64,000 nucleotides of DNA from the NCBI GenBank assembly GCA_016191815.1, contig JACPVI010000022.1:1-64000 (forward strand), given 5' to 3'. The position numbers and the translations under genes are program-made. Positions 208 to 9,392 of the stretch are shown here, piece by piece. The notes under the pieces are model-generated. The model was not told the origin of the DNA and ran no database searches. It was given only the letters and a program-made list of their open reading frames with translations. The stretch is from Myxococcales bacterium (GTDB lineage Bacteria; Myxococcota; Myxococcia; Myxococcales; Myxococcaceae). Numbering within the stretch: position 1 is the stretch's first letter; every line of letters starts with the position of its first letter.

Positions 208-909
208 TTAGAGCGAGAGCAAGTCCGCCCGGGCCAGCGTCAGCACCTGCACCTCGCGCGCGCCGGCGTCTAGCAGCGCCGAGGCGGCGGCGCGGGCGGT
301 GGCTCCGGTGGTGAGCACATCGTCGAGCAAGAGCACCGACAGGCCGGCCGCGCTGCCGACGGCAGCAAAGGCGCCCGCCACGTTGGCCTCGCGGGCCTGG
401 TCGGACAGCCCAACCTGGCGGCCGGTGTCCTTGGTCCGCACCAGCAGCTCGCGCGCAGCACCGCCATCGACGCGCTTGGAAAGCTCGACCGCGAGCAACA
501 TCGCCTGGTCGTACTTTCGCGCCCGGAAGCGGCGCTCGTGAAGGGGGATGGCGGCGACCAGCCGCGGGGCTCCTTCGAGGAAGTCCGCGGCAAAGCCGGC
601 CAGCAACTCGGCCAATGGCCGCGCCAACTCCGGGTGGTCCTCGTACTTGAAACGGTGGATGGCGCGGGCGACCGCCCCCTGGTGGGTGAAGGGGGCGAAG
701 GCGCGGCAGAAAGCAGGAGGGCGCGCGAGGCAGCGCGGGCAGCCGCCCTGGAACTCGCCCGGCTCGGAGCAGCGAGGGCAGCACCGCCGCGGCAGGCGCT
801 CCACCTCCGGCTGGCAGGCCTCGCAGAAGTGCCCAGGGGCGGGCAGCACCGCTCCGCAGGCCACGCAGGAGGGCGGGAAGATGACGTCGAGCAGGCCGGA
901 GAGCCCCAC
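208..909 (-). CDS. comF: ComF family amidophosphoribosyltransferase-like protein
   Basis: 233 residues, the usual length for ComF/GntX proteins. The N-terminus has a zinc-ribbon-like set of cysteine pairs (CVAC near residue 15, then CEAC, CCPRC and CPRC). The C-terminal half is a type I phosphoribosyltransferase fold with the PRPP-binding loop LLLDDVLTTGATA near residue 195. The family is linked to DNA uptake in competent bacteria, but its biochemical role is poorly defined. In this window the next minus-strand gene is gpmI, 2.7 kb away; the intervening cassette is on the other strand. The family call is secure, the competence role is not. Confidence 0.9.
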   Translation of the reverse strand: MGLSGLLDVIFPPSCVACGAVLPAPGHFCEACQPEVERLPRRCCPRCSEPGEFQGGCPRCLARPPAFCRAFAPFTHQGAVARAIHRFKYEDHPELARPLAELLAGFAADFLEGAPRLVAAIPLHERRFRARKYDQAMLLAVELSKRVDGGAARELLVRTKDTGRQVGLSDQAREANVAGAFAAVGSAAGLSVLLLDDVLTTGATARAAASALLDAGAREVQVLTLARADLLSL

Positions 910-1032: not shown

Positions 1033-1782
1033 ATGACCACCAGAATCAAGCGAGGCGGAACGCCCCAGCTGCCCAAGAAGGCGATCTCGCACAAACCTGT
1101 CCATGGGCAGGCAGTGAAGCAGGCCAAGGCGGCCGCAACCGCCCAAGTGCTTCCCCGCCGCGCCTGGAAGGACGACCAGGCGCTGCTCAAGGCCGAGAAG
1201 CGCGCGCTCGAGGGGCTTCGCCCGGAGTCCAAACCCTACCGGCTGCCCGGCTCGGTCGCGATGCCGCTCTACGGAATCGCTCTTCCGCCAGGGGGCCGCA
1301 AGCCTCCGGTGATGCAACCCCTCTATGGAATCTCCGGGCCCCCCGATAGCTCCCGGCGCCCCATCGTCAAGCCGATGTACGGCGTGACGTTGCCTCCTTC
1401 TCCGATCAAGCCCCCGGTGGTGCAGCCGCTCTACGGAGTGTTTCAACCCCCGGGCGGAGTTCGGCCTCCGCCCTTCTTGCCGCTCTACGGGATTTTCAGG
1501 CCCCCCGGCGGCTACAAGCCGCCGCCCATCCTCCCGCTCTACGGCATCATCAGGCCTCCGGGAGGCATCAAGCCGCCGCCCATCCTCCCGCTCTACGGCA
1601 TCGTGAGGCCTCCCGAGGGCTACAAGCCGCCCATCGCGCAGCCGCTGTACGGCGTGGCCCTGCCGCCCCCCGAAAGCAAACCTCCGGTGTTCAGACCGCT
1701 CTACGGGGTCGCCTTGCCTCCGGACAAGCCGCGCGAGCCGATTTTCCAGCCGCTGTACGGAATCGCGCTGGCTCGCGAGTAG
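1033..1782 (+). CDS. PLYG tandem-repeat protein, candidate multi-core RiPP precursor
   Basis: 249 residues. The first 77 residues are basic and repeat-free, with no signal peptide. From residue 78 to the end the protein consists of 18-residue units such as PLYGIALPPGGRKPPVMQ: nine full units plus a final PLYGIALARE. Each begins P-L/M-Y-G-I/V, followed by a proline pair and a basic residue. The ATG at 1033 was chosen because GGGGAGG lies just upstream and upstream codons overlap the comF region. A radical SAM/SPASM gene starts 16 bases after its stop, so a leader-plus-repeated-core peptide substrate is the simplest reading. A structural proline-rich protein is the alternative. I do not recognise a named family. 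Confidence 0.75.
   Translation: MTTRIKRGGTPQLPKKAISHKPVHGQAVKQAKAAATAQVLPRRAWKDDQALLKAEKRALEGLRPESKPYRLPGSVAMPLYGIALPPGGRKPPVMQPLYGISGPPDSSRRPIVKPMYGVTLPPSPIKPPVVQPLYGVFQPPGGVRPPPFLPLYGIFRPPGGYKPPPILPLYGIIRPPGGIKPPPILPLYGIVRPPEGYKPPIAQPLYGVALPPPESKPPVFRPLYGVALPPDKPREPIFQPLYGIALARE
1264..1779 (+). repeat. 54-bp tandem coding repeat, 9 full units plus a partial one
   Basis: Ten in-frame occurrences of P-[L/M]-Y-G-[I/V] at a constant 18-codon spacing. The glycine codon of the motif varies (GGA, GGC, GGG) and the Leu codon varies (CTC, CTG), while Pro, Tyr and Gly never change. The spacer between motifs is more variable but keeps a PP pair and a Lys or Arg in most units. This pattern indicates selection on the peptide rather than recent DNA duplication. 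Confidence 0.9.
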
Positions 1783-1798
1783 GGTCCGCACACAGAGC

Positions 1799-3169
1799 AT
1801 GCCGAAGAGCTTGGCCCTCAGCGCCGAGAGCGCGACGGACTATGCGGAGCGTGCCCGCGCGCGCCTGCAGGGCTTCTCGCGGGGCACCTACGCGGTATGG
1901 GAGTTCACGCTCAAGTGCAACCTGGCCTGCGAGCTGTGCGGCTCCCGTGCGGGCAGCGAGCGCCGCAAGGAGCTCTCCACCGAGGAGGCGCTGGAGGTCG
2001 CCCGGCAGCTCGCCGAGGCGGGGGTGAAGGAAGTCACCTTGATCGGCGGGGAGATTCTCCTGCGCAACGACTGGCAGCAGGTGGTGCGCGCCCTGAACGA
2101 CCACGGTCTGTTGTGCAGCATCCTCACCGGGGGGTACGGAGTCTCGCTCACCACGGCGCGGAGGATGAAGGCCGCCGGGGTGGCCTACGCCGCCATCTCG
2201 GTGGACGGGATGGAGGCCACCCACGACCGGCTCCGCGGCAGGGAAGGCTCGTGGACGTCCTGCTTCCGTACCATGGAGCACTTCCGGAGCGTGGATTTGC
2301 CCTTCTGCATCAACTCGCAGCTCAACCGCGCCACCGGGCCGGACATCCCGCGCCTGTACGAGGCCATCCACGCCGCCGGCGCGCGGGGCTGGATGGTGCA
2401 GCTCACCTTCCCGATGGGGAACGCCGCGGACCACGCCCGGGAGCTGTTGCAGCCCTGCGAGCTGTTGGACCTCTACCCGATGCTGGCGGTGGTGTTTCAG
2501 CGGGCGCACTCCGAGGGAGTGGGAATGAGCGCCGGGGACAACGTGGGCTACTACGGCCCCTACGAGCTTCTCTTCCGCAACTCCATGCCCACCGAGGAGC
2601 CATCGCTGTGGCAAGGCTGCCAGGCCGGGCTCTACACCGTGGGGGTGGAGTCGGACGGAATCATCAAGGCCTGCAGCTCGCTGCCCACCGGCGGGTTCTC
2701 CGCGGGGAACATCCGCCGCCAGCCGCTGCGAAAAATCCTCGCCAAGAAGGAGATGCGCTTCAACCTGGGCGGCGGCACCCGGGCCGGAGTGGCCCACCTG
2801 TGGGGCTTCTGCAAGCGCTGCGAGTACGGGGCGCTCTGCCGGGGCGGGTGCTCGGCCACCGCGTACGTGTTCTTCAACCGGCGGGGTAACAACCCCTACT
2901 GCCACCACCGCGCGCTGGAGCAGCAGCGGCGCGGGGTGAGGGAGCGGGTGGTCCCGGCGCGGAAGGCCACCGGCCGCCCCTACGACTTCGGCCTGTGGCA
3001 GCTTGTGGAGGAGCCCATCGACGCTCCCTGGCCGAGCGATGATTCTCACCATTTCACCTGGGACCGCATAGAGTGGCCCGCCGGCTTCGAGCCTTGGCTG
3101 GCGAGTGCGCCGGCAAACGAAGGAGCGCAAGATGGCCGAGAACATGTACCTCCTGAAGGTGACGAATGA
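1799..3169 (+). CDS. Radical SAM/SPASM domain peptide maturase-like protein
   Basis: 456 residues. The radical SAM cluster motif CNLACELC has cysteines at residues 40, 44 and 47, and a GGE motif follows near residue 80. The C-terminal 170 residues hold many cysteines (CQAG, CSS, CKRC, CRGGC, YCHH), as in SPASM domains that carry auxiliary iron-sulfur clusters. Enzymes of this architecture commonly modify ribosomal peptides by C-C, C-S or C-O crosslinks, though some act on other substrates. The gene directly follows the PLYG-repeat gene, and its end overlaps the next small gene by 38 bases, so all three are probably one operon. The exact reaction cannot be read from the sequence. Confidence 0.9.
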   Translation: MPKSLALSAESATDYAERARARLQGFSRGTYAVWEFTLKCNLACELCGSRAGSERRKELSTEEALEVARQLAEAGVKEVTLIGGEILLRNDWQQVVRALNDHGLLCSILTGGYGVSLTTARRMKAAGVAYAAISVDGMEATHDRLRGREGSWTSCFRTMEHFRSVDLPFCINSQLNRATGPDIPRLYEAIHAAGARGWMVQLTFPMGNAADHARELLQPCELLDLYPMLAVVFQRAHSEGVGMSAGDNVGYYGPYELLFRNSMPTEEPSLWQGCQAGLYTVGVESDGIIKACSSLPTGGFSAGNIRRQPLRKILAKKEMRFNLGGGTRAGVAHLWGFCKRCEYGALCRGGCSATAYVFFNRRGNNPYCHHRALEQQRRGVRERVVPARKATGRPYDFGLWQLVEEPIDAPWPSDDSHHFTWDRIEWPAGFEPWLASAPANEGAQDGREHVPPEGDE

Positions 3170-3407
3170 CGTGGCGTCGTGGGTGTCGCGGCGGCTGATG
3201 ATGAGCAAGGCGCCCTCCCACGTGAGGCTTGCCACCGAGATGCAGCTGAGCAACTACGGCTATCCGCCCAACGCGGTGGGGGCGCTGCTCCAGGTCAACG
3301 AGGACGGCCTGGTGGTGGGCGTCGAGGGCAAGGAGGACGTGCCCCGCGCCTTCGTCCCCTGGAGCAACGTCGGCTACCTGGCGGACGGCGCCGGACTCGG
3401 CAAGTAG
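3132..3407 (+). CDS. Small conserved-looking protein overlapping the radical SAM gene
   Basis: 91 residues, starting at an ATG inside the last 38 bases of the radical SAM gene, which implies coupled translation. There is no signal peptide or membrane segment. The middle carries NYGYPP, which faintly echoes the Tyr-Gly and Pro-Pro features of the repeat protein. The rest contains short alternating hydrophobic stretches (ALLQVNEDGLVVGVEG) consistent with a small beta fold. It may be an accessory, recognition or second substrate protein of the cassette. I do not recognise the family. Confidence 0.6.
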   Translation: MAENMYLLKVTNDVASWVSRRLMMSKAPSHVRLATEMQLSNYGYPPNAVGALLQVNEDGLVVGVEGKEDVPRAFVPWSNVGYLADGAGLGK

Positions 3408-3575: not shown

Positions 3576-5117
3576 TCAGAAGAGGCCTTTGCGGTTCATC
3601 TCCTCGGGCTGAGGCAGGCCCATCACCTTGCACAGGGTGGGGGCGATGTCCGCCAGCACGCCGGGCTTGAGCTTCTGACCGCGGAAGTCCGGGTGGGCGA
3701 GGTGGAAGGGAACCGGGTTCAGCGTGTGGGCGGTGTGCGGCTCGCCGGTCTTCGGGTCCACCATCAGCTCGATGTTTCCGTGGTCGGCGGTGACCACCAT
3801 CGTCAAGCCCAGCTTCTCGCTCGCGCGCCAGAGCTTCCCCAGGCACTCGTCCACCACCTTCACCGCCCGGATGGCGGCGGGCAGCACTCCGGTGTGGCCC
3901 ACCATGTCCGGGTTGGCGTAATTCACCAGGGCGAAGTGGTACTGGCTAGACTCGAGGCGCCTCAGAAGCTCGTCGGTCACTTCCCGCGCGCTCATCTCCG
4001 GCTTCAAGTCGTAGGTCTTCACCTCCCGCGGCGAAGGGACGAGCAGCCGGTCTTCTCCGGGGTAGACCACTTCCCTGCCGCCGTTGAAGAAGAAGGTCAC
4101 GTGGGCATACTTCTCCGTCTCGGCGGTGCGGAACTGGCGGAGCCCGGCCGCCGAAACCAGCTCCGGGAAGATGTGCCGTGGCTGCTCGGGAGGAAACGCC
4201 ACCGGCAACCCCTCGAAGGTGGCGTCGTACCGTGTCAGGCAGACAAAGCGGCCGAGCCTCAACGGCCCGCGCTCGAACTCGCGGAAGTCGGGGTAGGCGA
4301 GCGCCCGAGTCAGCTCTCTCGCCCGGTCGGCGCGGAAGTTGAAGAACATCGCCACGTCGCCATCGCGCATCAGGCCCATCGGCTCTCGTCGTCCTCCCAC
4401 CACCACCGCCGGCTCGACGAATTCGTCGGTCACCTTCTCCGCGTAGGAGGCCTTCACCGCCGCCGAAGCACTCTCGGCCCGCTTGCCTTCCCCACGCACC
4501 ATGGCGTCGAAGGCGCGCTTCACCCGGTCCCACCGCTTGTCCCGGTCCATCGCCCAGTAGCGGCCGCTCACCGTGGCGATCCGCCCCGAGGAGGTTTCCG
4601 TAAGGAAGCGCTCCAGCTCCTCGAGGTAGCCGAGCCCGCTCTGAGGCGGGGTGTCCCTCCCGTCGAGGAAGGCATGCACGACCACCCTCGAGAGGCCCTT
4701 CGCCTTGGCCGCCCGGACCAGCGTGTAGAGGTGCTCCATCGAGGAGTGCACTCCGCCCGGAGAAACCAGCCCGAGGAGGTGGAAGGCCGCCCCGTCCGCC
4801 TTCGCCTTCTCCATCGCCTGGGCGATGGCCGGGTTTCGCGCCAGCTCGCCCGATTCGCAGGCGCGGTTGATGCGCACCAGGTCCTGGTAGACGATGCGCC
4901 CGGCCCCGATGTTGGTGTGGCCCACCTCGGAGTTGCCCATCTGGCCCTCCGGGAGGCCCACCGCCAGCCCTGACGTCTCCAGCCGGGTGGAAGGGAAGTC
5001 CTGCGCCAGGCGGTCCAAGTTGGGAGTGCCGGCGAGCAGGATGGCGTTGGCTTCACGCTCGGCGCGGAGGCCCCAGCCGTCGAGGATGATCAACAGGGCA
5101 CGGTGAGCGGGAGTCAT
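3576..5117 (-). CDS. gpmI: 2,3-bisphosphoglycerate-independent phosphoglycerate mutase
   Basis: 513 residues, the family's normal size. It interconverts 3- and 2-phosphoglycerate in glycolysis and gluconeogenesis in the cytoplasm. The alkaline-phosphatase-like metal site is visible: DGWG at residue 12 onward, GNSEVGHTNIGAG with the catalytic serine near residue 63, and TADHGNIE near residue 445. The start at ATG 5117 puts ALLIILDGWG at the expected N-terminal position. It is convergent with the repeat-peptide cassette. Confidence 0.97.
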   Translation of the reverse strand: MTPAHRALLIILDGWGLRAEREANAILLAGTPNLDRLAQDFPSTRLETSGLAVGLPEGQMGNSEVGHTNIGAGRIVYQDLVRINRACESGELARNPAIAQAMEKAKADGAAFHLLGLVSPGGVHSSMEHLYTLVRAAKAKGLSRVVVHAFLDGRDTPPQSGLGYLEELERFLTETSSGRIATVSGRYWAMDRDKRWDRVKRAFDAMVRGEGKRAESASAAVKASYAEKVTDEFVEPAVVVGGRREPMGLMRDGDVAMFFNFRADRARELTRALAYPDFREFERGPLRLGRFVCLTRYDATFEGLPVAFPPEQPRHIFPELVSAAGLRQFRTAETEKYAHVTFFFNGGREVVYPGEDRLLVPSPREVKTYDLKPEMSAREVTDELLRRLESSQYHFALVNYANPDMVGHTGVLPAAIRAVKVVDECLGKLWRASEKLGLTMVVTADHGNIELMVDPKTGEPHTAHTLNPVPFHLAHPDFRGQKLKPGVLADIAPTLCKVMGLPQPEEMNRKGLF

Positions 5118-5225: not shown

Positions 5226-8200
5226 CTACGGGTAGCTGCACGTTCCCAGGTTGCACACCTGGTTGGGCGGGCACACCACGCCGCAGGCGCCGCAGTTGTT
5301 GCGGTCGAAGTCGGTGTCCACGCACTGCCCGCCGCAACTGGTGAGGCCCACCTGGCAGGTGCACACCCCGCCGACGCAGCCCATCACCCCGGGGCTCCCC
5401 GGGCAGACGTAGCCGCAGGCGCCGCAGTTGAGCCGGTCGTTCTGCAAGTCGCGGCAGACGCCGCTGCAGTTGGTGAAGCCCACCGCGCAGACGCACTGCC
5501 CTCCGACGCAGAACTGGTTGAAGGCGCACACCCGGCCACAGGCGCCGCAGTTCCGCCGGTCGTTCTGGAGGTTCCGGCAGATGCCGCCGCAGAAGGCGGA
5601 GCCAGCGGTGCAGTAGCAGATCCCTCCCACGCACTGCAGGTTGGTGCCGCACCGGTAGCCGCAGCTCCCGCAGTTGCTGGCGTCGGTGGCCAGGTTGAAG
5701 CAGGAGTTGTTGCAGTTGCTGAGCGGGCTCGGGCACTGGGTGAGGCACACCCCGTTGGAGCAGACCTGGCCCGCGGAGCAGGTCCTCCCGCAGGCGCCGC
5801 AGTTGTTCGGGTCGCTCGCGAGCTTCACGCAGGTGTTCCCGCAGCGGGTGTAGCCGTTGGCGGCGTTGCACTGGCAAATGCCGCCGAAGCAGGTGTTGCC
5901 CGGGCCGCAGCTGTTGAAGCAGGCGCCGCAGTGCTGGGCGTTGGTGGAGAGCGAGACGCAGGAGCCGCCGCAGTTGGTCTGGAAGCCGAAGCACTGGGTC
6001 TGGCACTGGAAGAAGTTGCAGACCTGGTTCGCTCCGCAGGTCCTCCCGCAGGCGCCGCAGTTGTTGGGGTCGCTCATCAGCCGGACGCACTGGTTGCCGC
6101 AGCGGGTGTAGCCGGCCGGGCAGACGCAGGTGCTGTTCACGCAGGAGCCGAGCGAGCCGCAGCTATTCCCGCAGCTCCCGCAATTCTGCGGGTCGGAGGT
6201 GGGGTTGACGCAGGAGGTTCCGCACTGCAGGTAGCCGGTGGGGCAGGGCCCTCGGCAGACGCCGCCGGTGCAAGAGATGCCGGACGGGCAGGCCACTCCG
6301 CAGGCGCCGCAATTCTGCGGGTCCACCGAGGTGTCCACGCAGGAGGTGCCGCAGAGCGTCTTCCCGCTGCCGCAGGTGCACATCCCCGCGGTGCAGCTCG
6401 TGCCAGAGGGGCAGACCTTCCCGCAGCCGCCGCAGTTGTTGGGGTCGCTCTGGGTGTTGATGCACGCCGCTCCGCACTGGCTGGTGCCGGGGGGGCAATA
6501 ACAGGTCCCCGCGCTGCAGGAGGCGCCGGAGGGGCACTTCACTCCGCAGCCGCCGCAGTTCTGCGGATCAGACTGGGTGCTGACGCATGCCCCGCCGCAG
6601 TTGGAGGAGCCCGGCGGGCAGAGGCAGGTACCCAGCGCGCAGACCGCGTTGGCCGGGCACTTCACTCCGCAGCCGCCGCAGTTTTGCGGGTCGGTCAGGG
6701 TGTTGACGCAGGCGCCGCCGCAGTTGGTGGTTCCGGAGGGGCACTGGCACACCCCGCTCGAGCAGGCCGCTCCGGCGGGGCACTTGATGCCGCAGCCTCC
6801 GCAATTCACGGGGTCGGAGAGCACGTTGACGCAGGCGCCGCCGCAGAGCGCGCTCCCCGGCGGGCAGAGGCAGGCGCCGGCACTGCACGCGGCCCCGGAG
6901 GGGCACTTCACGCCGCAGCCGCCGCAGTTTTGCGGGTCGGTCTGGGTGCTGATGCAAACGCCCGAGCAGTTGGAGGTGCCGGACGGACACCGGCAGCTCG
7001 CCCCGCTGCAGGTGGCGCCGGCGGGGCACTTGACGCCGCAGCCGCCGCAGTTGAGCGGATCAGACTGGATGTCCACGCAGCTTCCGCCGCAGAGGACGCG
7101 CCCGGAAGGACACTGGCAGACGCCGCTCAGGCAGGGGGCTCCCGCTCCGCAGGCGATGCCGCAACCGCCGCAGTTCTGCGGGTCGGTCAGGGTGTTGACG
7201 CAGGCACCGGCGCAGTTGGAGGTTCCGGACGGGCACCTGCAGCTCGCTGCGCTGCAGGTTGCTCCCGCGGGGCACTTCACTCCGCAGCCGCCGCAGTTGA
7301 GCGGATCCGACTGGACGTCCACGCAGGTGCCACCGCAGAGGATGCGTCCGGAGGGGCACTGACATGCCCCGTTGAGGCAGGAGCCTCCCGGCCCGCAGGC
7401 GATGCCGCAGCCGCCGCAGTTTTGCGGATCGATTTGGAGGTCGCGGCACACCGTGCCGCATAGCTTCTGTCCGCCGGGGCAGGTGCAGGCGCCCATCGCG
7501 CACTTCGTGCCGGAGGGGCACACCACCCCGCAGCCGCCGCAGTGCTGCGGGTCGCTGGAAGTGTCCACGCACGCGCCGGAGCAGACCGTCCCTCCGTTCA
7601 GGCACCGGCAAGTGCCGGCGCCGCAGGACTGACCCGGCCCACACCGGATGCCGCAGCCGCCGCAGTTCTGCGGGTCGCTCGAGGTGTTCACGCAGGAGCC
7701 GCCGCACAGCGTGCTTCCGGCAGGGCAGACGCAGGCGCCTGCGGCGCAGCTCGTCCCTGACGGGCAGGGGTTGAAACAAGCGCCGCAGTGCAAGGAGTCG
7801 GTTTGTAGGTTGACGCACCGGCCGGCGCAGTTGGTGAGGGGGGCGCAGCTGGTGGTGCAGACGCCAGCGTTGCACACCTGGCCGGCTGCGCAGCGAAGCC
7901 CGCAGCCGCCACAGTGGTTGGGGTCGGAGCGGACGTCCACGCAGGTGTTGTTGCAGCTGAGGAACGGAGCGGTGCAGACGCAGGCGCCCCCACGGCAGCT
8001 GTGCCCGGCCGGGCAGGCGTTCCCGCAGGCCCCGCAGTGGAGCGCGTTCGACTGGAGGTCCACGCAGCTGCCGCTGCAGAGGGCGCGCCCGGAAGGGCAC
8101 TGGCACGCCCCGTTGAGGCAGGACGCGCCCGCCCCGCAGACGATGCCGCAGCCGCCGCAGTTTTGCGGGTCGCTCGAGGTGTTCACGCAGGAGCCGCCGC

Positions 8201-9392
8201 ACAGGGTGCCTCCGGTGGGGCAGGCGCAGGCGCCCGAGGCGCAGCTCGTCCCGGAGGCGCAGACCTTGAAGCAGGCGCCGCAGTGCAAAGAGTCGGTTTG
8301 TAGGTTGACGCACCGGCCGGAGCAGTTGGTGAGGGGGGCGCAGCTCGTGGCGCAGGCTCCGGTGTTGCACACCTGCCCCGCTGCGCAGCGGACCCCGCAC
8401 CTTCCGCAGTGGTTGGGGTCGGATCGGACGTCCACGCAGGCGTTGTTGCAGCTCTGGAAGGGCGCGGTGCAGACGCAGGAGCCCCCCTGGCAGCTGTGCC
8501 CGGGCGGACAGGCCTTTCCGCAGGCGCCGCAGTGAAGCGAGCTCGTCCTCAGGTCCACGCAGCTCCCGGCGCAGTCGGCGAGGCCGGAGGCGCACGCGCA
8601 CCTGCCCGCCGCGCAGCTCCGCTCGTCCGGGCAGACGTTGCCGCAGTTGCCGCAGTTGAGCCGGTCGGTCTGGAGGTTCCGGCAGAAGCCGCCGCAGCTC
8701 GTCTCTCCCGGCGGGCAGGACTTGAGGCACTTGCCCCCCTGGCACCGTTCGTCCGAGTCGCAGATCGCCTTGCACCCGCCGCAGTTGTAGCGGTCAACGC
8801 CCGTGTCCACGCACGACTGCCCGCACTGGGTGAGGCCCACGTCGCACTTCTTCACGCAGGTGCCCGCCTGGCACAGCTCTCCGCTCGGGCAGGCCTTGCC
8901 GCAGGCGCCGCAATTCTTCGGGTCGGAATCCAGGTTGGCGCACTGGCCGGAGCAGTTCTTGAGCGGTGCGAGGCAGGCGCAGCCTCCGTTCGAGCAGGTG
9001 AGGAGCTCGGCGCAGGCGTTGCCGCAGCTGCCGCAGTTCTTCCGATCAGTTGTCAGGTTGACGCAGCTGTCGCCGCACCGCGAGGTGCCCCCCTCGCAGC
9101 TCTGCGAGCACTTTCCTCCCTGGCAGACCTGTCCGCTCGGGCACGGCCGCTCGCAGGTGCCGCAGTGCTGGCGGTCCGTGGAGAGGTCCACGCAGGCCCC
9201 GTCGCAGCGGGTCTTTCCCGGCTGGCAAGTCCCCTCGTCGGGCACACAGCGGCCGGAGGAGCAGACCATCCCCTCCGGGCAGGGGAGGTCCCCCTCCGAG
9301 CCACAGAAGAGCGGCTCGGTGCGCGCGCACCCCAAAAGCCACGCCCCCAGCGCCAGGGGGAGCCACCAGCGCAGCAGTCTGGTCATAGTCAT
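5226..9392 (-). CDS. Very large cysteine-repeat lipoprotein
   Basis: 1388 residues. The N-terminus has a hydrophobic stretch ending LLGC, so Cys22 is the probable lipidated residue and the protein is exported and membrane-anchored. After residue 55 the protein is almost entirely units of about 40 residues with the pattern C-x6-C-x3-C-V-x5-DP-x-NCG-x-CG-x2-C-x5-C-x4-C-x-C; I count about 32. Similar Cys/Gly repeat proteins occur widely in myxobacterial genomes, but their role is unknown. The density of disulphide-forming residues suggests a stiff, extended extracellular rod or adhesin. No enzyme domain is visible. The ATG at 9386 is an alternative start. Confidence 0.85.
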   Translation of the reverse strand: MTMTRLLRWWLPLALGAWLLGCARTEPLFCGSEGDLPCPEGMVCSSGRCVPDEGTCQPGKTRCDGACVDLSTDRQHCGTCERPCPSGQVCQGGKCSQSCEGGTSRCGDSCVNLTTDRKNCGSCGNACAELLTCSNGGCACLAPLKNCSGQCANLDSDPKNCGACGKACPSGELCQAGTCVKKCDVGLTQCGQSCVDTGVDRYNCGGCKAICDSDERCQGGKCLKSCPPGETSCGGFCRNLQTDRLNCGNCGNVCPDERSCAAGRCACASGLADCAGSCVDLRTSSLHCGACGKACPPGHSCQGGSCVCTAPFQSCNNACVDVRSDPNHCGRCGVRCAAGQVCNTGACATSCAPLTNCSGRCVNLQTDSLHCGACFKVCASGTSCASGACACPTGGTLCGGSCVNTSSDPQNCGGCGIVCGAGASCLNGACQCPSGRALCSGSCVDLQSNALHCGACGNACPAGHSCRGGACVCTAPFLSCNNTCVDVRSDPNHCGGCGLRCAAGQVCNAGVCTTSCAPLTNCAGRCVNLQTDSLHCGACFNPCPSGTSCAAGACVCPAGSTLCGGSCVNTSSDPQNCGGCGIRCGPGQSCGAGTCRCLNGGTVCSGACVDTSSDPQHCGGCGVVCPSGTKCAMGACTCPGGQKLCGTVCRDLQIDPQNCGGCGIACGPGGSCLNGACQCPSGRILCGGTCVDVQSDPLNCGGCGVKCPAGATCSAASCRCPSGTSNCAGACVNTLTDPQNCGGCGIACGAGAPCLSGVCQCPSGRVLCGGSCVDIQSDPLNCGGCGVKCPAGATCSGASCRCPSGTSNCSGVCISTQTDPQNCGGCGVKCPSGAACSAGACLCPPGSALCGGACVNVLSDPVNCGGCGIKCPAGAACSSGVCQCPSGTTNCGGACVNTLTDPQNCGGCGVKCPANAVCALGTCLCPPGSSNCGGACVSTQSDPQNCGGCGVKCPSGASCSAGTCYCPPGTSQCGAACINTQSDPNNCGGCGKVCPSGTSCTAGMCTCGSGKTLCGTSCVDTSVDPQNCGACGVACPSGISCTGGVCRGPCPTGYLQCGTSCVNPTSDPQNCGSCGNSCGSLGSCVNSTCVCPAGYTRCGNQCVRLMSDPNNCGACGRTCGANQVCNFFQCQTQCFGFQTNCGGSCVSLSTNAQHCGACFNSCGPGNTCFGGICQCNAANGYTRCGNTCVKLASDPNNCGACGRTCSAGQVCSNGVCLTQCPSPLSNCNNSCFNLATDASNCGSCGYRCGTNLQCVGGICYCTAGSAFCGGICRNLQNDRRNCGACGRVCAFNQFCVGGQCVCAVGFTNCSGVCRDLQNDRLNCGACGYVCPGSPGVMGCVGGVCTCQVGLTSCGGQCVDTDFDRNNCGACGVVCPPNQVCNLGTCSYP
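5229..9227 (-). repeat. About 32 coding repeats of ~40 codons with nested duplications
   Basis: The unit is marked by NCG-x-CG or HCG-x-C. Units 6-9 and 10-13, counted from the N-terminus, form a four-unit block duplicated at a 495-bp offset. For example, the DNA at 8268-8370 is almost the same as at 7773-7880. Units 16-17 and 18-19 are a second duplicated pair. The central units are the most alike and the terminal units most diverged. Confidence 0.85.

Follow-up and report, generated by a model that had tools for sequence, protein, structure and literature searches.

The closest described system to the locus reported here is PlpXY of Pleurocapsa sp. PCC 7319 (Morinaka et al. 2018, as described in PMC10533398 and PMC11002830), which makes spliceotides: tyramine is excised from the precursor at X-Tyr-Gly (XYG), and several such events per precursor are possible (PMC10533398, PMC11002830, PMC10373908). 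The partner protein PlpY has been described as a truncated recognition element (RRE) of ribosomally synthesized and post-translationally modified peptides (RiPPs) (PMC11002830) and as too small to adopt the RRE fold (PMC12710340), the PqqD-like RRE being defined as a βββ-ααα winged helix-turn-helix (PMC12710340). According to a review, β-residues give spliced peptides potent protease inhibition (PMC10373908), and spliceotide products are again stated to be protease inhibitors elsewhere (PMC11117315). Here we analyse a 64,000-nucleotide stretch of a Myxococcales bacterium (contig JACPVI010000022.1 of assembly GCA_016191815.1; the window), which at positions 1033-3407 of the plus strand holds a three-gene cassette for a 249-residue repeat protein, a 456-residue radical S-adenosylmethionine (rSAM)/SPASM enzyme and a 91-residue protein. 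We put at about 80% the probability that this is a splicease cassette, in which tyramine would be excised at ten XYG sites of a substrate that carries a PlpY-like leader. The chemistry is of a known kind, that of the spliceotides; the ten-site substrate with its PlpY-like leader in cis, together with the accessory family, is a variant.

The repeat protein and its PlpX-type enzyme

The motif P[LM]YG[IV] occurs ten times in the repeat protein, starting at residues 78, 96, 114 and so on to 240, and all spacings are exactly 18 residues. The stop of the gene lies 16 bases before the enzyme open reading frame (ORF), the 3′ end of which is overlapped by the third gene. These features, and a CxxxCxxC at residues 40-47 of the enzyme, had been recorded in an initial annotation of the DNA and hold to the base. 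XYG cores adjoining a splicease gene are the mark of a spliceotide precursor, and here ten L/M-Y-G sites stand directly upstream of the enzyme gene. Units of the window such as PIFQPLYGIAL are, moreover, closely similar to PIRPLYGLPI, a natural site of PlpX. The repeat is weak in the nucleotide sequence, with 3.1-3.2 copies and 78-83% matches. Between units, the five core codons show 72 synonymous and 33 non-synonymous differences, all of these 33 being L/M or I/V exchanges, and the 13 spacer codons 125 synonymous and 371 non-synonymous differences. Since core differences are mostly synonymous and spacer differences mostly non-synonymous, the core motif is kept by protein-level selection and does not reflect recent DNA duplication.

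No NCBIfam or Pfam family, and no Nif11-like leader, was found in the repeat protein; a search with it found no other copy in the genome that might be a second substrate for the same enzyme. The Pro-rich, low-complexity sequence without a known family could also be that of an ordinary structural protein beside an unrelated gene. We find this hardly credible, given the close spacing of the two genes on one strand and the XYG-repeat precursors that adjoin PlpX-type genes in several phyla (see below).

The cassette had at first been taken as possibly undescribed, a view that the family-model search revises by placing the enzyme with the splicease PlpX. Its top NCBIfam model is TIGR04103 (606 bits, E 2.4e-182), the runner-up reaching 352 bits, and it shares 56% identity with PlpX across residues 26-439 (E 1.6e-178); PlpX itself has 419 residues and scores 824 bits on TIGR04103. 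In a maximum-likelihood tree the enzyme falls in a 56-row clade with cyanobacterial PlpX-type enzymes (support 100/99), nearly all checked members of which adjoin XYG precursors. All ten cluster cysteines, those of CxxxCxxC and of the SPASM region, are retained. Foldseek finds a resemblance to SPASM enzymes, for example SkfB and anSMEcpe, and a PDB sequence search for a solved PlpX relative returned only distant SPASM enzymes, with SkfB at the top.

For comparison, we recognised the plp cluster itself in two of the loci examined (numbered with L throughout; here L146/L159) by both published core tags, AVAAMYGVVFP and PLFPIRPLYGLPI. The first is that of PlpA3, whose M5G mutant tag is AVAAGYGVVFP, and the second was compared with the PIRPGYGLPI tag of PMC10533398. 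The gene order there, epimerase-like gene, PlpA3, PlpA2, PlpX and a small ORF, appears to fit the accessions of PMC11002830 ending in 883 (PlpD), 880 (PlpX) and 879 (PlpY). The window shares with this system the rSAM family, XYG cores in a Pro-Leu-Tyr-Gly context and an LPRxxW partner module, and differs from it in several ways. PlpA2 and PlpA3 each have a single site and a Nif11-type leader that bears a GG motif (PlpA2 matches TIGR03798 Nif11), whereas the window substrate has ten sites and no Nif11 leader; PlpY is a separate 56-residue gene product, whereas the PlpY-like module of the window is fused to the substrate; the window has an extra 91-residue gene, and the plp system no β-rich accessory protein; and the window cassette lacks an epimerase, unlike the plp cluster with its epimerase-like gene.

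A multi-core RiPP-type cassette, in which a single rSAM/SPASM enzyme acts at many identical sites, had been proposed from the DNA, and the analysis supports it. The specific reaction suggested then was different: a cyclophane-forming rSAM enzyme of the triceptide type would cross-link Tyr to Ile/Val of each Tyr-Gly-Ile/Val, with a loss of 2 Da per unit. The units do hold an aromatic three-residue stretch, and the architecture of the enzyme is rSAM/SPASM. We regard cross-linking as very unlikely, however, because models and tree alike place the enzyme with PlpX; among its 25 best NCBIfam models the cross-linking enzymes WgkB and DynA score only 62 and 48 bits, versus 606 for TIGR04103. In the relatives, furthermore, the residue after Tyr-Gly varies (YGV, YGI, YGL, YGA, YGM, YGS), whereas Tyr-Gly is conserved. 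Modification at X-Tyr-Gly, with a tyramine loss of about 135 Da, is expected instead.

Several properties of the enzyme count against assignment to the spliceases. It does not reach the curated TIGR04103 equivalog cut-off of 725 bits, and neither does any Myxococcota member; by NCBI's rule it is not an equivalog, yet it is nested in the clade of PlpX-type enzymes. Its branch is very long (0.92), and of 124 columns with a conservation of 93% or more among the 55 others it departs at 16, including H46L, A86I and P293S, the first of which falls inside the cluster motif CxxxCxxC. The reaction may thus be altered or impaired. The same divergence would suit a PlpX-derived enzyme that carries out another reaction at Tyr-Gly, such as oxidative cleavage or decarboxylation without rejoining. 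We consider this unlikely, since all cluster cysteines and the XYG cores are retained, and enzymes with even more departures (L119 and L126 of Eremiobacterota) still adjoin XYG precursors with a PlpY-like leader. There is no clear sister of the window enzyme, and those with the highest identity to it come from cyanobacteria; because of the long branch, which leaves its placement inside the clade open, we do not claim horizontal transfer.

Splicing is the preferred reading, and we infer the reaction in this organism from sequence relationships, gene order, co-occurrence, and conserved sites and cofactor residues. The splicease would remove most of the Tyr from the backbone at each Leu/Met-Tyr-Gly, leaving ten reactive keto groups. 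As the enzyme groups with PlpX, which excises tyramine from X-Tyr-Gly, the predicted change is -135.07 Da per site and -1350.68 Da in total (monoisotopic mass from 26,908.05 to 25,557.37 Da, with the initiator Met retained).

A PlpY-like leader within the substrate

The small ORF of the plp cluster, which by its position is PlpY, encodes 56 residues (MNSNQIPNKVATAAQKSDDSSSVLPRQGWQDKQAFIKALIKAKQSLEIAEISNFLT) and starts 12 bases after plpX. The leader of the window substrate can be aligned to it (VLPRRAWKDDQALLKA versus VLPRQGWQDKQAFIKA). An ORF of this [LF]PRxxW type stands at the PlpY position, directly after plpX, in 54 of the 55 cyanobacterial loci; most of these ORFs have 48-98 codons, and a helix-like stretch follows the motif. 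None of the 80 cyanobacterial XYG precursors has such a motif inside. Outside cyanobacteria, it is present in 11 of 19 multi-site precursors versus 26 of 4245 other ORFs of the same loci (Fisher 3e-19). When a hidden Markov model (HMM) of the PlpY-position ORFs was run against 5006 non-cyanobacterial ORFs, the five top matches were all XYG precursors, the window substrate being second. In the window itself no separate small LPRxxW protein is encoded after the enzyme gene: the third gene is unrelated to the plp small ORF, and the PlpY-like segment lies in the precursor.

Some caution is due here. Single matches to the PlpY profile are weak, with E values of 0.006-0.15 (about 0.02 for the window, over residues 39-54), and the best shuffled sequence reached 0.095. 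The hhalign comparison of PlpY-position ORFs with cis leaders gave 94.9% probability over 28 columns, both sets being anchored at the motif, and so the case for the leader rests on the pattern across loci. Some of the counted loci are those in which the motif was first noticed, and near-duplicate loci (L110/L041, L123/L038, L006/L036) are included in the counts.

The simplest reading of this pattern would make PlpY a docking or leader peptide supplied in trans, which in the window is fused to the substrate. The leader VLPRRAWKDDQALLKAEKRALEGL would be the cis version of the module that cyanobacteria provide as a separate PlpY, and it probably docks on the rSAM enzyme. The PlpY match in the substrate's own leader looks new, although Scott et al. 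(Chem 2022) might bear on its novelty. We extend this only tentatively, as a proposal that falls somewhat short of probable: PlpY would be a leader freed from its substrate and not a truncated RRE; spliceases would need an LPRxxW-helix docking peptide, in cis in multi-core precursors and in trans in cyanobacteria; and with the β-rich accessory protein the cis systems would make a decavalent α-ketoamide polymer active as an intact protein, perhaps as a multi-headed protease inhibitor.

Multi-core relatives and the accessory protein

Co-occurrence in other genomes had been named as a check on the initial annotation, and XYG precursors indeed adjoin PlpX-type genes across Myxococcota and in other phyla. 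A TIGR04103-type match at E <= 1e-80 was found in 48 of 195 Myxococcota genomes; one group scores about 600-680 bits and the others below about 520. Repeated PxxQP[LMV]YG[VI] or similar units stand beside a PlpX-type gene in SZAS-1/Eremiobacterota (L112, L114), Thiothrix/Thiofilum (L107, L113, L116) and Myxococcota (L006, L035-L038). Most of these multi-core relatives, which Scott et al. (Chem 2022) may already cover, have a PR-containing leader, and they differ from the window in having four to ten sites and other spacers. Within Myxococcota, beside genes of the high-scoring group, the precursors of L006/L036 have five copies of ARYGVIRPP, those of L037 and L038 four copies of AMRYGLRPP and AMKYGLxRPD, respectively, and that of L035 five sites between apparently globular stretches of a 451-residue protein. 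The precursor of L041 (8830-9234) combines a PR leader and four xYG sites with a C-terminal hydrophobic, transmembrane-like stretch (LVLFVVGGLVAAAALLWWF). In ten further loci of the high-scoring PlpX-type group (L039, L040, L042-L049) the adjoining precursor is short and has one site and a GG motif; with the filters used, L050 and L051 gave no precursor. Outside Myxococcota, SZAS-1 (L112) and an Eremiobacterota metagenome-assembled genome (MAG; L114) have ten sites, L131 seven, and Thiothrix/Thiofilum four or five. None of 76 tallied cyanobacterial precursors exceeds four, and the highest number among all precursors examined is ten.

Three PR-leader precursors (L119 5599-5979, L120 983-1534 and L126 2362-3150) have a hydrophobic segment and a Cys close ahead of the first site (SGCAPTAVYGGPPP in L119), a layout that suggests membrane-anchored XYG proteins. 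The second-best family of the window enzyme, TIGR03913, called 'GDL motif peptide-associated', also has relatives in Myxococcota that adjoin XYG proteins (L020-L023, and L025, L033 and L034 with CYG). They form separate tree clades, have one or two sites per protein, and show no PR leader. In L020-L023 the rSAM genes are nearest TIGR03913 (582 bits for L023, the one checked) and adjoin two-site proteins with [PA][ML]YGV(F/V)-type sites and helical-looking stretches between them; the TIGR03913 family may also include spliceases. Beside the lowest-scoring main Myxococcota clade, the proteins of L025 (2849-3190), L033 (2861-3241) and L034 (2899-3252) share three features: CxxC pairs, a hydrophobic segment, and LMACYGMPPC or a sequence like it. 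In them Tyr-Gly comes directly after a lipobox-like Cys, making a Cys-Tyr-Gly site at the would-be lipidation cysteine.

The protein encoded by the third gene of the cassette belongs to no Pfam family, and its one NCBIfam match is at chance level. Its AlphaFold model (predicted local distance difference test 91) is β-rich, with strands at residues 4-10, 30-35, 50-56, 59-64, 73-76 and 80-85 and a single helix at 12-21. This order of strands and helix, set against the winged helix-turn-helix of the RRE, rules the protein out as an RRE. It is likewise rejected as a PlpY homologue, having no match in the plp cluster and none in four cyanobacterial genomes searched whole. A fold search gave no Foldseek match at E <= 0.001, and the best VIA-align Z was about 3, a weak value; the leading rows included Hfq/Sm and an SH3-type barrel made by design, and we assign the protein to no known fold.

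Relatives of the accessory protein, at 32-62% identity, are found in 7 of the 195 Myxococcota genomes, six of them with a multi-core cassette. By genome, the gene occurs in 6 of 15 with a high-scoring PlpX-type gene versus 1 of 180 others (p 5e-7). For multi-site genomes the count is 6 of 7, for single-site ones 0 of 8 (p 0.0014). Among the multi-core cassettes, it accompanies those of Myxococcota L006 and L035-L038, and it also adjoins L108, L109 (two copies), L112 and L114, which include Eremiobacterota and a deltaproteobacterial MAG; the Thiothrix types have no accessory protein. The link is not complete. Genome G018 has the gene (L052 2651-2941) without an adjacent cassette, no precursor or rSAM fragment being found beside it on the contig, in genome G182 it lies about 7 kb from the cassette, and the plp cluster has no homologue, so that the protein is not needed for splicing as such. 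We propose a role in multi-site splicing, where this small protein would help the enzyme handle long Pro-rich substrates with many sites. The family is tied to multi-core precursors with one exception and looks new, though here too Scott et al. (Chem 2022) might be relevant. In the seven-site cassette of L131 the PlpX-type gene is followed by that of a different protein of 93 residues (3808-4089); it has no sequence match to the third gene of the window and may be another small β-barrel.

Cassette boundaries and the predicted product

Oppositely oriented housekeeping-type genes bound the cassette on both sides (Table 1), which is consequently three genes long. Within it there is no exporter, protease or regulator, in line with the early remark that the first two are lacking nearby. 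GGGGAGG is read 5′ of the ATG of the first gene and AAGGAG 5′ of the third gene. Beyond the flanking genes, positions 5226-9392 of the minus strand encode a 1388-residue Cys-rich repeat protein that is MXAN_6577-like (NCBIfam NF041328 in 20 stretches, Pfam Stig1 in 22 stretches).

Table 1. Positions of the cassette, its predicted functional parts and the flanking genes in the window
Feature	Position	Strand	Basis
Multi-core splicease substrate (predicted), 249 aa, with a basic N-terminal tail, a PlpY-like leader and ten Pro-rich core units of 18 residues	1033..1782	+	translation, motif spacing
PlpY-like leader segment, residues 39-62 (VLPRRAWKDDQALLKAEKRALEGL)	1147..1218	+	PlpY-profile HMM, hhalign, plp small ORF, alignment
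XYG splice site 1 (LYG), predicted	1267..1275	+	
XYG splice site 2 (LYG), predicted	1321..1329	+	
XYG splice site 3 (MYG), predicted	1375..1383	+	
XYG splice site 4 (LYG), predicted	1429..1437	+	
XYG splice site 5 (LYG), predicted	1483..1491	+	
XYG splice site 6 (LYG), predicted	1537..1545	+	
XYG splice site 7 (LYG), predicted	1591..1599	+	
XYG splice site 8 (LYG), predicted	1645..1653	+	
XYG splice site 9 (LYG), predicted	1699..1707	+	
XYG splice site 10 (LYG), predicted	1753..1761	+	
PlpX-type radical SAM/SPASM splicease (predicted), 456 aa	1799..3169	+	TIGR04103, PlpX identity, tree, Foldseek
CxxxCxxC of radical SAM [4Fe-4S] cluster (C40, C44, C47)	1916..1939	+	
SPASM region, seven conserved Cys (C274, C292, C338, C341, C347, C351, C368)	2618..2902	+	Pfam SPASM residues 274-341
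Accessory protein without family name, 91 aa, predicted small β-rich fold	3132..3407	+	co-occurrence, AlphaFold model
ComF-like gene	208-909	-	flank of cassette, oppositely oriented, housekeeping-type
2,3-bisphosphoglycerate-independent phosphoglycerate mutase gene	3576-5117	-	other flank, oppositely oriented, housekeeping-type

In their layout the single-site GG precursors resemble cleaved RiPPs of the classical type. For the window substrate, in contrast, no GG motif stands close ahead of the first core and no protease is encoded nearby, as would be expected if the modified protein were used whole. A modified structural polymer, suggested at the outset, is an idea that the analysis neither supports nor contradicts. 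The spliced substrate would probably serve as a whole protein with many α-ketoamides. As to what it does, a multi-headed protease inhibitor or a reactive scaffold would be the most plausible function, and even so a doubtful one; the idea of protease inhibition is drawn from reviews of other spliceotides, which weakens it for this product.

If the splicease reading is true, one small cassette rewrites the backbone of one protein at ten sites, the top count among the precursors examined, and proteins with many ketoamides, of use in labelling or in inhibiting proteases, could readily be obtained from it. The accessory protein would offer a new marker for locating multi-core spliceotides, and the fused leader suggests what role the puzzling helper PlpY may have elsewhere.

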